From positions 19,149 through 64,276 of the forward strand of contig JAUNQH010000006.1 in the NCBI GenBank assembly GCA_030536295.1: 45,128 nt of DNA, written 5' to 3'. The position numbers and the translations under genes are program-made. The stretch's first letter is position 1. Each line of letters opens with the position of its first letter. The notes beneath the pieces were generated by a model, which saw only the letters and a list, made by a program, of their open reading frames with translations, did no database searches and was not told the origin of the DNA. Below are positions 20,547-27,307 of the stretch, in pieces. The stretch comes from Clostridia bacterium (GTDB lineage: Bacteria; Bacillota; Clostridia; Christensenellales; Aristaeellaceae).

Positions 20547-20620
20547 TGGAGCGGGTGATGGGAATCGAACCCACGTTACCAGCTTGGAAGGCTGGAGCTC
20601 TGCCATTGAGCTACACCCGC
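20547..20620 (-). tRNA. tRNA-Gly(TCC)
   Basis: Acceptor GCGGGTG/CACCCGC, anticodon stem CCAGC/GCTGG with loop CTTCCAA (anticodon TCC), T-loop GGTTCGATTCC. The CCA end is encoded. Confidence 0.97.
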
Positions 20621-20623
20621 ATG

Positions 20624-20698
20624 TGGAGCGGTAGACGGGATTCGGACCCGCGACATCCACCTTGGCAAGGTGGCACTCTACCACTGAGCTACTACCGC
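20624..20698 (-). tRNA. tRNA-Gly(GCC)
   Basis: Acceptor GCGGTAG/CTACCGC, anticodon stem CCACC/GGTGG with loop TTGCCAA (anticodon GCC). The CCA end is encoded. Only 3 nt separate it from tRNA-Gly(TCC). Confidence 0.97.
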
Positions 20699-20724
20699 AC
20701 GTTCCACTTAGGGATCCTGATGAA

Positions 20725-20804
20725 TGCGGACGAAGAGACTCGAACTCTTACGCCTAAGGCACCGGAACCTAAATCCGGCGCGTCTGCCATTCCGCCACGC
20801 CCGC
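20725..20804 (-). tRNA. tRNA-Leu(TAG)
   Basis: Acceptor GCGGGCG/CGTCCGC, anticodon stem CCGGA/TCCGG with loop TTTAGGT (anticodon TAG), and a variable arm (GTGCCTTAGGCGT) as in class II tRNAs. CCA is not encoded. Confidence 0.95.
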
Positions 20805-20818
20805 AGGGCAGATGGGAG

Positions 20819-20891
20819 TGACCCATTGGAGATTCGAACTCCAGACACCTTGATTAAAAGTCAAGTGCTCTGCCTACTGAGCTAATGGGTC
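20819..20891 (-). tRNA. tRNA-Lys(TTT)
   Basis: Acceptor GACCCAT/ATGGGTC, anticodon stem CTTGA/TCAAG with loop CTTTTAA (anticodon TTT). CCA is not encoded. Confidence 0.96.
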
Positions 20892-20899
20892 ATAAAATG

Positions 20900-20971
20900 C
20901 TGGGGTGGCAGGGCTCGAACCTACGAATGCGGGAGTCAAAGTCCCGTGCCTTACCACTTGGCTACACCCCA
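20900..20971 (-). tRNA. tRNA-Gln(TTG)
   Basis: Acceptor TGGGGTG/CACCCCA, anticodon stem CGGGA/TCCCG with loop CTTTGAC (anticodon TTG). CCA is not encoded. Confidence 0.96.
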
Positions 20972-21008
20972 ACGTAGGTACGTTGTCTGCTGAACGAAAC
21001 GGAAAAGA

Positions 21009-21086
21009 TGGGGTGAGTAGTGGGACTCGAACCCACGGTCTCCAGAGCCACAATCTGGCGCGTTAACCAACTACGCTATACCCACC
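21009..21086 (-). tRNA. tRNA-His(GTG)
   Basis: Anticodon stem CCAGA/TCTGG with loop TTGTGGC (anticodon GTG). An extra G at the 5' end faces C73, the histidine identity feature. The CCA end is encoded. Confidence 0.96.
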
Positions 21087-21092
21087 ATAAAC

Positions 21093-21169
21093 TGGCGCGC
21101 CTGGAGGGGCTCGAACCCCCGGCCCACGGCTTAGAAGGCCGTTGCTCTATCCAACTGAGCTACAGGCGC
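21093..21169 (-). tRNA. tRNA-Arg(TCT)
   Basis: Acceptor GCGCCTG/CAGGCGC, anticodon stem ACGGC/GCCGT with loop CTTCTAA (anticodon TCT). The CCA end is encoded. First gene of the tRNA operon. Confidence 0.97.
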
Positions 21170-23210: not shown

Positions 23211-23238
23211 AAAAAGGACGCGCTCAGCGTCCTTTTTT
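23211..23238. terminator. Bidirectional terminator between convergent genes
   Basis: AAAAAGGACGC (23211-23221), GCTCA loop, GCGTCCTTTTT (23227-23237). The nth stop codon lies inside the loop. Confidence 0.88.
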
Positions 23239-23853
23239 GTATTTGCACACATCTGCCAGCGGACATTCGTCGCACAGCGGATGCTGCGCTTTGCAGATCC
23301 TTCTGCCGTGCCATATCAGCCAGTGATGCGCCCTGCCCCATTTTTCCTTCGGCACGACACGGGTGACCTGTTTCTCGGTCTCTTCCACGGTATCGGCTGT
23401 ACACAGTCCAAGTCTGTTCGCGACGCGGAAAACATGCGTATCCACGGCAAAGGCAGGTATGCCGAAAGCGTTATACAGCACTACATTGGCGGTCTTCCTG
23501 CCGACGCCCGGCAGTTCCGTCAGTTCTTCCATCGTATCCGGCACCTGCCCGCCGTGCCGTTCGGCAATGATCCTGCAGGCCGCGATAATGTTCTTTGCCT
23601 TGTTCCGGAATCCGCAGCTTTTCACCAGCGGATACAGATCATCCTCCGACGCGTTCGCCATTGCCGCCGGATCCGGATACCGTGCGAAAACTTCCGGCGT
23701 CACCTTGTTCACCTGTTTATCCGTGCACTGTGCCGACAGGATCGTCGCCACGAGCAATTCATAAGGATCCGAGAATACAAGCTCGGCTTTGGCCTCCGGA
23801 TAGGTTTGCTCCAGGATCTCCAGGATGGCGGCTTTTCTTTCTTTCTGCGTCAT
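23224..23853 (-). CDS. nth: Endonuclease III
   Basis: A 209-aa DNA glycosylase/AP lyase that removes oxidised pyrimidines in base excision repair. The helix-hairpin-helix LPGVGRKTANVV carries catalytic K120; D138 lies in AVDTHVFR. The [4Fe-4S] cluster ligands C187, C194, C197 and C203 have the classic C-X6-C-X2-C-X5-C spacing. The start codon immediately follows the folT stop (TAA-ATG with no gap), so it is co-transcribed and probably coupled. Length is normal. Confidence 0.97.
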   Translation of the reverse strand: MTQKERKAAILEILEQTYPEAKAELVFSDPYELLVATILSAQCTDKQVNKVTPEVFARYPDPAAMANASEDDLYPLVKSCGFRNKAKNIIAACRIIAERHGGQVPDTMEELTELPGVGRKTANVVLYNAFGIPAFAVDTHVFRVANRLGLCTADTVEETEKQVTRVVPKEKWGRAHHWLIWHGRRICKAQHPLCDECPLADVCKYKKGR

Positions 23854-24399
23854 TTACATACCAGCTCTTTTCAATGCCTTAACAACAGGAGGGATCACAA
23901 ATCCCAGAACAACAGCCGTACCGATCCCCGTAAACAGACGGATCACAAAATCCCCGAATACATAAGCTTTTGAATAATATCCGAAAATAACGCTGTCAAG
24001 CCAGGTGATGCCTGTGTTGGCCAGTGTTGTCACAACAGCCGCGGCAACCAGCAGCGCAAAGAATGCGGCAGGCTGTTCCCAGGGCTCTTTTACTTTACAT
24101 CTGCGTCTGATCAGCATGCATCCGAACGCGACGATCAGCCCGCGTACAACAGGCGGCAGCAGCCACAGCGGCGTGGTGAGCGTAAGCCCCCAGCTCAACA
24201 GCTGATGAATAAATTCACCGAGCGCTGCCGCGACAGTGCTTTCCAGCGGGCCGTACAAGACCGCAAGGATCAGTATCGGCAAACTGGCCAAGGTAATGGT
24301 GATATTCCCGATACGGATCGTCAGGTACATCGTCAGCACAAAATAGAGCGCGGCAAAGACCGCGACCAGGCATAAACGTTTCGTTGTCATTTTTCCCAT
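23854..24399 (-). CDS. folT: Folate-family ECF transporter S component
   Basis: A 181-aa membrane protein with about six helices. ATG 24399 follows AAGGGGG. The family pattern is visible: TKRLCLVAVFAALYFVLT, then ITLASLPILILAVLYGPLESTVAAALGEFIHQLL and PLWLLPPVVRGLIVAFG. It captures folate and works with the shared EcfA/A'/T module, which is not in this window. The assignment to folate, not another vitamin, rests on a THF riboswitch in its leader. It lies between asd and nth. Confidence 0.9.
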   Translation of the reverse strand: MGKMTTKRLCLVAVFAALYFVLTMYLTIRIGNITITLASLPILILAVLYGPLESTVAAALGEFIHQLLSWGLTLTTPLWLLPPVVRGLIVAFGCMLIRRRCKVKEPWEQPAAFFALLVAAAVVTTLANTGITWLDSVIFGYYSKAYVFGDFVIRLFTGIGTAVVLGFVIPPVVKALKRAGM

Positions 24400-24405
24400 A
24401 ACAAA

Positions 24406-24450
24406 AAGCCCCCTTCTTCATCCTGTTCAGCAGATGATTCGCAGAGGCTT
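24406..24450 (-). promoter_or_regulatory. Putative expression platform of the THF riboswitch
   Basis: AAGCCTC (24450-24444) can pair with GGGGCTT (24412-24406), which includes most of the folT ribosome site. TTTTTG follows, so the hairpin could mask the site or act as a terminator. Confidence 0.5.
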
Positions 24451-24459
24451 CCTGCCGGA

Positions 24460-24564
24460 AAAAGCAGCGGGATGCGCATCTTCTACCGCACGGACCGGTC
24501 CGTTTCGTTTCATGACAACTCCCCGTTCATGAACACTTAACGCAGAAGACGCTACTCTGCCTTT
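24460..24564 (-). promoter_or_regulatory. THF riboswitch upstream of folT
   Basis: On the minus strand the conserved core GAGTAG (24557-24552) and GCGTTAAGTGT (24543-24533) is present. P1 is AAAGGCAG with CTGCTTTT. P2 is CGTCTTCT (24551-24544) with AGAAGATG (24484-24477). P3 is TTCATGA with TCATGAA. P4 is the perfect palindrome ACGGACCGGTCCGT (24490-24503). The 3' side holds GCATCCCGC, as in the tetrahydrofolate-I class. Known THF riboswitches control folT and folate biosynthesis genes, repressing when reduced folate is plentiful. Confidence 0.9.
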
Positions 24565-24587
24565 ACGAATCGTATAATATTCTCAGA

Positions 24588-25679
24588 TCATTTCGCGATG
24601 ATGTATCCCTTGCGGCACAGCAGTTCCGCGGTCAGGATCCCGCCGCCGGCCGCCCCGCGGATCGTGTTGTGGCTCAGGCACACAAAACGCCAGTCAAAGA
24701 TGCGGTCTTCACGCAGGCGGCCGATGCTGATGCCGAAACCGTTCTGGAAATCACGGTCAAGGCGCGTCTGCGGACGGGACGGATCCTCAAAATACTGCAG
24801 GAAAGGCTTCGGCGCGTTGGGCAGTTCAAGCTCCTGCGCGACAGTTGTATAATTCGCCCACCGTTCCAGGATCTGCTCCTTTGTCACTTTCTTTTTGAAG
24901 CTTACGGAAACGGCTGCCATATGACCGTCGCTGCAGGCGACGCGGAGGCACTGCGCGCTGATCACGGGCAGTTCCGCGTTCACGATCACCTTGCCGTTGC
25001 CCTTGTCTTCCAGGTGCCCCCACAGCTTAAGGGGTTCCTGTTCGCTCTTCTCATCCTCACCGCCGATATACGGGATCACATTGTCAATGATCTCCGGGAA
25101 GGACTTGAACGTTTTGCCGGCGCCGCTGATCGCCTGATAGGTGCATACGCTGACCTTTTCGGGTTCAAAATCCAGCAGGGGCGTCAGCGCGGGCACATAG
25201 CTCTGGATCGAGCAGTTGGGTTTTACCGCGATAAAGCCGCGCTTGCAGCCAAGGCGTTTACGCTGAGCCTCGATCGCTTCCAGATGGAACGCGTTGATCT
25301 CCGGCACCACCATGGGCACATCTTCAAGACCGCGGCAGGCACTGTTGTTGCTGACCACGGGGATCTCATGCTTCGCGTAGTTTTCTTCCAGCGCGCGGGT
25401 CTCTTCCTTGGACATAACGACCGCGCAGAAAACGAAATCGACTTTCTCGCCGATCGCGTCAATGTCCGCGGCATCCATAACGACCATATCCGCGATGTTC
25501 TCCGGAATCGGCCAGTCAAAAGCCCATCTGTCGCCTACCGCTTCACGGTAAGTCTTGCCGGCGCTGCGGGCGGAAGCCGCGACACACGTCACCCTGAACC
25601 ACGGATGATCCTTCAGAAGCGATATGAACCGCTGACCGACCATACCGGTTGCACCGATGATACCCACACGATACTGCAT
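24588..25679 (-). CDS. asd: Aspartate-semialdehyde dehydrogenase
   Basis: A 363-aa NADP-dependent enzyme making aspartate semialdehyde for lysine/diaminopimelate, threonine and methionine. GGAGGGG lies 6 nt before the ATG. N-terminal nucleotide motif GIIGATGMVGQRFI; catalytic C156 in AVKPNCSIQSY; substrate-binding ISGAGKTFKSFPEIIDN; C-terminal SIGRLREDRIFDWRFVCLSHNTIRGAAGG. The sequence belongs to the archaeal/fungal branch of the family, found in many Clostridia, unlike the E. coli type. It heads the run asd-folT-nth. Confidence 0.95.
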   Translation of the reverse strand: MQYRVGIIGATGMVGQRFISLLKDHPWFRVTCVAASARSAGKTYREAVGDRWAFDWPIPENIADMVVMDAADIDAIGEKVDFVFCAVVMSKEETRALEENYAKHEIPVVSNNSACRGLEDVPMVVPEINAFHLEAIEAQRKRLGCKRGFIAVKPNCSIQSYVPALTPLLDFEPEKVSVCTYQAISGAGKTFKSFPEIIDNVIPYIGGEDEKSEQEPLKLWGHLEDKGNGKVIVNAELPVISAQCLRVACSDGHMAAVSVSFKKKVTKEQILERWANYTTVAQELELPNAPKPFLQYFEDPSRPQTRLDRDFQNGFGISIGRLREDRIFDWRFVCLSHNTIRGAAGGGILTAELLCRKGYIIAK

Positions 25680-25728
25680 AGCAAACCCCTCCAGTCACCC
25701 TGCTTCATCGAGCCTCTGGGTTGCATTG

Positions 25729-25757
25729 AGTATAGCGGACAGCAACCTGCAAGTCAA
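25729..25757 (-). promoter_or_regulatory. Promoter of asd
   Basis: TTGACT (25757-25752), 17-bp spacer, TATACT (25734-25729) on the minus strand. The leader is short (about 45 nt), with no T-box or lysine riboswitch. Confidence 0.75.
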
Positions 25758-25768
25758 TCAAAGTACAC

Positions 25769-27307
25769 TCAAAATGCAGCCATCAGCACACTCTGTCCGG
25801 GCATGACCAGTTTCTTTCCGTCACAGCTTGCGCGGCCGCCGAAACTGTAGATCTCCCTGTCCGGTATGATCGCGCAATCGCACTCGCATGTCCGTGATGA
25901 CGGGTTGATCGCCACCAGAATACGCTCGTCCGCTTTTTCACGGACATAAACCAGCGGATATCCGTCATTGATCACTTCCGGAAGGCCGTCCGCCTGCAGC
26001 GCAGGATGCGCCATACGCAAAGCGATCAGGCGTCTGATCTCATTCCACAGCGAATCCGGGTCCGCCATCTGGGACGCGGCGTCCGGCCGGCTTTCCGGCT
26101 CATCCTGCCTGATATACAGTTTGCTTTCATCAGCCGTGCTGAATCCCGCGTTTCTGCTTTTATCCCACTGCATCGGCGAACGTGAGCCCGTCCGGCCGTA
26201 TCCGCCTTCAACGGAAGCGATATTCTCAATATAACGCATTCCGATCTCGTCGCCGTAATAGATGAACGGAGCTCCAGGCATGGATAACAGGAAGGCAAAA
26301 GCGATCTTCAGCTCATCACCGTTCAGCCTGCGCGCCAGGCGGTCCGTATCATGGTTTCCGGATATAAGGCAGATCAGCCCCTTGTTTCCGGACAGTTCCG
26401 CAGCCTCCAGATACCGTTTCATAAAAGCGGCGGCGCTGCCTTTGCCCTCGGCGGAAAAATACGGATGCTCCGCCCGAAAAAGATCGGTATAGTTGCTGAG
26501 GCCTCCGTTCAGCGTAAAATCCATATGGAACCCGCCCGCGATGCTGTGCTCCGGCTGATCCCATTCCGCGATCATGGCTGCTTCCGGATACTCATCATCA
26601 AGCATTTCGCGGATCTCAGTCCACAGCGCCATCGTTCCCTTGTGATCCGGGTCATTCTTCACCGGGCAGGCGGCCATGTCCACACGATACCCGTCGATCC
26701 CCATATCCAGCCAGAAACGCATGATCTTCTTCAGTTCGGCCACGGTCTCACGCGGACCTTCCGCGTCCGTCGGCTGCTCCCATGGTCTGCGCACTTCATA
26801 AAAGCCGTAATTCAGCGCCGGCTGGTGGCTGAAAAAGCTGACGATCGCCGATCCGTCCCGCTCGGAATATCCGCGCAGCGCGTTCAGTCCGTCCGTATCA
26901 TGCCAGATGCAGTCCGTCCAGATAAATCTGTCCGAATATTGGTTCCGTTCATGCTTTGAGGATGCGACAAACCACGGATGCGTCACCGCGGTATGACACG
27001 GCACAAGATCCAGAAGCAGGTGCATTCCGCGTTCATGGCACGCGGTGATCAGCTGCCGCATATCCTCATTGGTTCCGTATCTCGGCGCCACACGATAATA
27101 GTCCTCAACATCATATCCGGCATCTCCGAACGGCGAAACAAAGCACGGATTCAGCCAGAGCGCGCTGCAGCCGAGTTCCTTTATATAGTCCAGTTTTCCG
27201 ATGATCCCCTGCAGGTCCCCGATGCCGTCCCCGTTCGTATCCATGAAGCTTTGGGGATAGATCTCATAGAACACCGCTGTCTTCAGCCATTCAGGATAAT
27301 TGCTCAT
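25769..27307 (-). CDS. GH13 alpha-glucosidase-like enzyme
   Basis: A 512-aa cytoplasmic glycoside hydrolase. ATG 27307 follows GGAGGCAAAACA; the frame opens at 27370 without a site. N terminus WLKTAVFYEIYPQSFMDTNGDGIGDLQGI carries the calcium-binding DTNGDGIGD of oligo-1,6-glucosidase/trehalose-enzyme relatives. The catalytic triad is intact: D210 (GYRVDMAA), E248 (IAEWDQP) and D320 (SGNHDTDR). The active site is likely exo-acting on small alpha-glucosides. It starts 37 nt after the HAD gene and is probably co-transcribed with it. Substrate linkage cannot be read from sequence. Confidence 0.9.
   Translation of the reverse strand: MSNYPEWLKTAVFYEIYPQSFMDTNGDGIGDLQGIIGKLDYIKELGCSALWLNPCFVSPFGDAGYDVEDYYRVAPRYGTNEDMRQLITACHERGMHLLLDLVPCHTAVTHPWFVASSKHERNQYSDRFIWTDCIWHDTDGLNALRGYSERDGSAIVSFFSHQPALNYGFYEVRRPWEQPTDAEGPRETVAELKKIMRFWLDMGIDGYRVDMAACPVKNDPDHKGTMALWTEIREMLDDEYPEAAMIAEWDQPEHSIAGGFHMDFTLNGGLSNYTDLFRAEHPYFSAEGKGSAAAFMKRYLEAAELSGNKGLICLISGNHDTDRLARRLNGDELKIAFAFLLSMPGAPFIYYGDEIGMRYIENIASVEGGYGRTGSRSPMQWDKSRNAGFSTADESKLYIRQDEPESRPDAASQMADPDSLWNEIRRLIALRMAHPALQADGLPEVINDGYPLVYVREKADERILVAINPSSRTCECDCAIIPDREIYSFGGRASCDGKKLVMPGQSVLMAAF

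Follow-up and report, generated by a model that had tools for sequence, protein, structure and literature searches.

A THF-I riboswitch and its predicted expression platform ahead of folT and nth in a clostridial genome

The window analyzed here, a stretch of 45,128 nucleotides from a Clostridia bacterium, carries in the gap between asd and folT an element resembling the tetrahydrofolate (THF) class of riboswitches. A riboswitch of this kind in front of a folate gene is an expected find and an ordinary member of its class; what the locus raises is the question of how the aptamer is connected to its output, and which genes that output covers. In the following sections we address this through the leader itself and its relatives in one bacterial family, and thereby give a comparative picture of the connection between a THF-I aptamer and its output, including a covarying helix formed with RNA upstream of the Rfam model. 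All features described lie on the minus strand, and positions are those of the window.

The aptamer and its relatives

The Rfam THF covariance model (RF01831) has a full-length match at 24561..24463 (model positions 1-99 of 99), with a score of 86 bits (E 1.1e-18), 50 bits above the gathering score of 36. The first-pass annotation, which named this search as its check, had proposed that the core and the four pairings of the class are present here, and the alignment bears this out: helices P1-P4 and the stretches GAGUAG, UUAAGUG, ACGGG..GUUG, ACGAA, CGGU, and CGCAUCC are all found. The aptamer (24463..24561) sits, as that annotation had also placed it, between asd (24588..25679; TIGR00978, 328.5 bits against a cutoff of 301.2) and folT (23854..24399), 5′ of the latter and on the same strand. 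Membership in the family is established by the model score, and on its sequence the element is a canonical THF-I riboswitch, with THF as its presumptive ligand. It is the sole RF01831 match in the source genome, which is 67% complete, and the THF-II riboswitch is absent from the eight gathering-level Rfam matches of the window. A fold of the plus strand of the region (z -1.26) was discarded, the element being on the minus strand. Elsewhere on that strand, positions 20550-21169 hold a cluster of seven tRNA genes.

The product of folT (181 aa) is assigned as the S component of a folate-family ECF transporter. By score this assignment is marginal, at 62.9 bits for TIGR04518 against an NCBIfam subfamily cutoff of 60; the same model matches at E ≤ 0.001 all 46 of the THF-linked proteins scanned (out of 103), the window FolT included. 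Directly after folT, with zero gap, comes nth (23224..23853), encoding endonuclease III (TIGR01083, 271.1 bits; cutoff 211.7), so that the two genes abut over 23224-24399.

For comparison, we searched 200 family genomes with RF01831. Matches were found in 108 of these at 110 places, all of which were taken with their surroundings to the contig limits and sorted by us, by their first ten bases, into four classes: 60 in class A, to which the window belongs, 25 in B, 11 in C, and 14 in D. Leader folds and duplexes were computed for 90 of the 110 matches (55 of 60 A, 25 of 25 B, and 10 of 11 C), which leaves out the 14 of class D, five lacking a called start, and one whose start lies 216 nt away. 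Outside the family, at the level of the order, 40 of 107 places were used for leaders and 20 for gene order.

The sample also holds some unusual aptamers. Ten THF-like leaders before folT-family genes (L100-L109, of genera g26 and g32; e.g. L100:1479-1603) score 33-41 bits with RF01831, seven of them reaching the gathering score of 36 bits. Here a small hairpin with flanking G-rich bases stands where GAGUAG would be, and L3 no longer has its GUUG, while the side of the three-way junction is retained. With a model derived from the ten, these members score 108-135 bits and all other places in the 200 genomes 57.4 or less. According to two papers, the pseudoknot or loop-receptor site weighs more in control than the junction site (PMC9881143, PMC6614920), and the remodeled site may therefore alter ligand recognition. 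Two further variants, L094 and L099, have GGAAAG instead of GAGUAG and score 52-60 bits. At L056 (G129:C223:1216-1314 and 1549-1644) two THF riboswitches lie on opposite strands, 234 bases apart, each preceding its own S-component-like gene.

The upstream end of the transcript

The asd stop codon lies just 26 nt before P1. This short distance is consistent with a leader that forms part of a longer asd-folT-nth transcript and acts within that operon, rather than one transcribed from its own promoter. A two-hexamer promoter scan points the same way, as it returned none in the asd-folT gap and, on the minus strand, two sites at and just before the asd start, with 1.0 (sd 1.0) expected by chance; and asd stands upstream of the riboswitch in eight of the 110 loci. 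These eight are, however, all of the window's genus (distance 29-256 nt), whereas nth is kept across ten genera. Against read-through from asd there is also an excess of -10-like boxes within 30 nt upstream of the aptamer, which occur in 41 of 60 class A matches versus 10 of 240 control windows. For class B the figures are 22 of 24 versus 9 of 96; no clear excess is seen in class C (3 of 11 versus 6 of 44) or class D (0 of 13 versus 1 of 52). The candidate in the window itself is weak: TATTAT (24574..24579), with five of six consensus matches and without a matching -35. A transcript starting 7 nt past it, near 24567, would lose four bases of the 5′ tail GAUUCGUA (24564..24571) discussed below. 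On balance, transcription of the leader from asd seems to us somewhat less likely than not.

Two alternative helices in the leader

Downstream of the aptamer, AAGCCUC (24450..24444) is complementary to GGGGCUU (24412..24406), the latter holding the folT ribosome site. Five U residues follow at 24407..24403, then GUU, and then the folT start codon at 24399. An AAGCCTC/GGGGCTT helix over the ribosome site with a T run behind it had been predicted in the first-pass annotation, and all its parts are found at the positions given there. The hairpin that results (24401..24455) contains an inner hairpin in its loop. As a 62-nt segment it has a predicted energy of -24.4 kcal/mol, which 2 of 200 dinucleotide shuffles equal; the fold of the 186-nt leader has a z of -3.13, equaled by 1 of 200. 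Followed by five U, the hairpin is a candidate intrinsic terminator, although its loop is long. A simple terminator scan of 23800..25900 listed five sites (2.3 expected), none of which is this hairpin, its loop exceeding the 8-nt limit of the tool.

The same architecture recurs in the relatives. At least four of the five ribosome-site bases are paired in 90 of 90 folded leaders of classes A-C, and for the downstream fold 48 of 55 leaders of class A, 19 of 25 of class B, and 5 of 10 of class C outdo 95 of 100 shuffles. T runs were counted between the ribosome site and the start at GGAGG sites 9-17 nt before ATG (42 A, 25 B, 10 C, and 14 D), with controls from the same fetched loci. A run of four or more T is present at 85 of 91 THF-linked starts, compared with 3 of 94 others. 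The window, with GGGGG in place of the GGAGG usual in the family, falls outside this set of 91. When any called ribosome site is allowed, such a run is found in 92 of the 105 THF matches with a called start, the five-T run of the window among them. In the order-level leaders outside the family the figure is 28 of 40, obtained with a crude method of calling starts, which left five of the leaders without one.

These counts bear on what the hairpin might do. It could act on translation only, masking the ribosome site while the U run is incidental and most transcripts read through in both states. The pairing of the site in every folded leader agrees with this, as does a window hairpin that is long-looped and unlisted by the terminator scan; masking, however, needs no T run, and the enrichment of T runs before THF-linked starts is hard to explain by masking alone. 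We therefore consider a purely translational switch unlikely. Alternatively, the hairpin could be a terminator, with the ribosome site falling in its 3′ arm by chance. The T-run enrichment suits this, and so does the retention of nth, beyond folT, in the unit (42 of 55 evaluable class A loci); but an overlap of 3′ arm and ribosome site in 90 of 90 leaders argues against chance, and any transcript that read through would be masked as well. A switch working on transcription alone seems to us improbable to much the same degree. The T runs favor a terminator as well as a mask, and the hairpin is a credible dual-purpose platform, its position allowing an effect on both transcription and translation, in line with the combined mechanism that the first-pass annotation had thought possible.

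The masking arm has a further possible partner, in a helix that competes with the hairpin. The 5′ tail GAUUCGUA (24564..24571), which forms the outer half of a putative antisequestor or antiterminator, pairs with UGCGAAUC (24443..24436), and AGGC (24559..24562), of which three bases belong to the P1 5′ strand and one does not, forms the inner half by pairing with GCCU (24448..24445). The 3′ strand, GCCU-C-UGCGAAUC (24436..24448), overlaps the 5′ arm of the masking hairpin, and the helix has 12 pairs in all. Duplex searches in the relatives yielded this pairing, and it replaced an earlier candidate antiterminator made of GCAGAG with CUCUGC.

In the window 2 of 100 dinucleotide shuffles give as good a duplex between tail and downstream strand. 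Of 55 class A leaders 41, with the window among them, have a duplex that outdoes 95 or more of 100 shuffles, and the other 14 fall short of this mark; one class A leader (L070) has only a weak, unrelated duplex. In classes B and C the numbers that reach the mark are 0 of 25 and 0 of 10. In 42 of 60 class A matches the motif GATTCG lies in the 24 nt before the aptamer; in the 40 order-level leaders outside the family it had no match shortly before a GAGTA-like start, which suggests that the tail helix is particular to this family. Within the family, an antisequestor of this form is, as far as the leaders compared indicate, limited to class A.

The two strands also change together. Strands paired with their own partners average -21.79 kcal/mol; with partners exchanged among leaders the mean is -20.42 (sd 0.33), and 0 of 10000 such permutations are as good. 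In an alignment of the 54 distinct sequences among the 55 class A leaders, with the strands aligned separately, 92.7% of cells pair, the permutation mean being 90.2% and the maximum 91.7%; conservation of both strands keeps this gain small. Changes on both sides of the helix number 18, where the maximum in 2000 permutations is 14. All of these permutation controls leave the relatedness among the sequences in place. Sliding the strands by one or two bases lowers the pairing to 32-37%. A pattern search of a genome collection gave 108 matching stretches, with record titles for 80 of them, and by the criterion of two short motifs 51 of the 108 contain the THF core. The downstream antisequestor motif is present in 46 of these 51 and in 0 of the 57 others, and the counts for a ribosome site with a T run are likewise 46 of 51 and 0 of 57.

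Predicted energies depend on how much of the leader has been made. For RNAs ending between 24436 and 24413, the antisequestor state is predicted to be the best one or to fall short of the best by no more than 0.2 kcal/mol, and it is ahead of the P1 state by 4.2-4.6 kcal/mol. For the full-length leader the predicted fold puts the state with P1 and hairpin ahead by 6.2 kcal/mol. The ON state would have to be kinetic, because at equilibrium the full-length fold favors OFF even without ligand.

From the aptamer membership, the presence and conservation of both alternative helices in the sequence, the T-run enrichment, and the gene order, we infer that the element is probably an OFF switch for folT, operated through two competing helices. 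This covers a translation-only or a transcription-only output as sub-cases, whichever output dominates; the ligand, the direction of switching, and the share of termination or masking are likewise inferred. Without ligand, during synthesis of the leader, the tail and the AGGC on the P1 side would pair with GCCU and UGCGAAUC. The antisequestor would then tie up the masking arm, leaving the ribosome site open and letting the polymerase read on. Binding of THF would presumably shift this early competition in favor of P1; by holding P1 shut it would prevent completion of the antisequestor helix. The freed AAGCCUC would pair with GGGGCUU and hide the folT ribosome site, and the same hairpin with its U run might also work as an intrinsic terminator immediately ahead of the folT start. 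Plentiful reduced folate would in this way turn off folT, and nth too if termination operates. That the aptamer is instead a degenerate or decoy one which has lost THF binding is most improbable, given a score which ranks seventh among the 110 of the family sample and conserved core stretches that are intact.

The folT-nth unit and related systems

Should termination operate, nth falls under THF control together with folT. The gene lies directly 3′ of folT on the same strand in the 42 class A loci mentioned above, which come from ten genera and represent 42 of all 110 family matches. The gaps between the two genes range from -34 to 111 nt, 40 of the 42 being within 35 nt and 36 within 16. The arrangement is found in 0 of 49 evaluable loci of classes B, C, and D, and nth had no match in the 20 order-level loci, each of about 2.5 kb.

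The transporter gene between these elements appears to have had a history of its own. In two genomes, G163 and G185 (loci L003 and L008), the block running from asd through the riboswitch and leader to 14 bases into folT is 98.3% identical over 1680 aligned bases, and a second, from 26 bases past the folT stop through nth, is 91.2% identical over 706 bases. The FolT proteins between these near-identical flanks share about 31%, and for this reason we conclude that within the genus the transporter gene appears to have been swapped at its site, with riboswitch and nth retained. The first block ends just past the start codon, as would fit a regulatory element that is complete in itself. Compared with the seven other class A FolT proteins that the sample includes for its genus, the window's own FolT reaches no more than 31% identity, where the values for the same genus members are 85-93% for the riboswitch, 85-87% for Asd, and 75-77% for Nth; the nearest FolT in the sample (50%) belongs to another genus, at locus L060. 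A second exchange is likely in genus g30, where nth is 86-89% identical and folT 28-35% over 40-67 residues. We rejected as a count of exchanges the 166 of 302 locus pairs in which nth reaches at least 70% and folT stays below 40% or aligns over fewer than 100 residues, since folT generally diverges faster than nth. As a separate observation, a 700-base stretch of locus L037 is found exactly in L163, a genus member (CADBEB010000025.1, uncultured Clostridiales isolate RUG13884).

Taken together, we tentatively propose, as a reading that may nearly as well hold as fail, that in this family the THF riboswitch governs a folT-nth unit in which folate shortage would raise both folate uptake and a base-excision repair enzyme, the leader and nth forming a fixed frame and the transporter gene having been exchanged more than once. 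The conserved neighbor raises the question of whether endonuclease III is induced by folate limitation. Endonuclease III also cleaves abasic sites, so that a link of nth to thymine shortage under folate limitation is conceivable. A search of the open-access literature for endonuclease III with riboswitch and folate led to a paper on heat stress whose matching passages do not link these terms, which is not proof of absence.

The platform and operon detail are what make this member of a familiar class useful. To the masking helix and U run of the first-pass annotation the present comparison adds the competing helix, the T-run enrichment, the nth neighbor, and the in-place exchange of the transporter. 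Among known systems the closest is the THF-I riboswitch (RF01831), with which the window shares a complete aptamer upstream of folT; it differs in that a 5′ tail outside the Rfam model joins a competing helix and in that nth follows folT. Riboswitches with the ribosome site inside a terminator arm are a general type, which the window resembles in that a single hairpin might serve both to end transcription and to conceal the start site. For the THF-II riboswitch (folE motif), OFF control through a blocked ribosome site has been proposed (PMC6800512). The likeness lies in the ligand group and in this proposed mode of OFF control. THF-II, however, has another fold and other hosts, and its ribosome site is within aptamer helix P1, whereas in the window the ribosome site stands apart from the aptamer and is followed by a U run.
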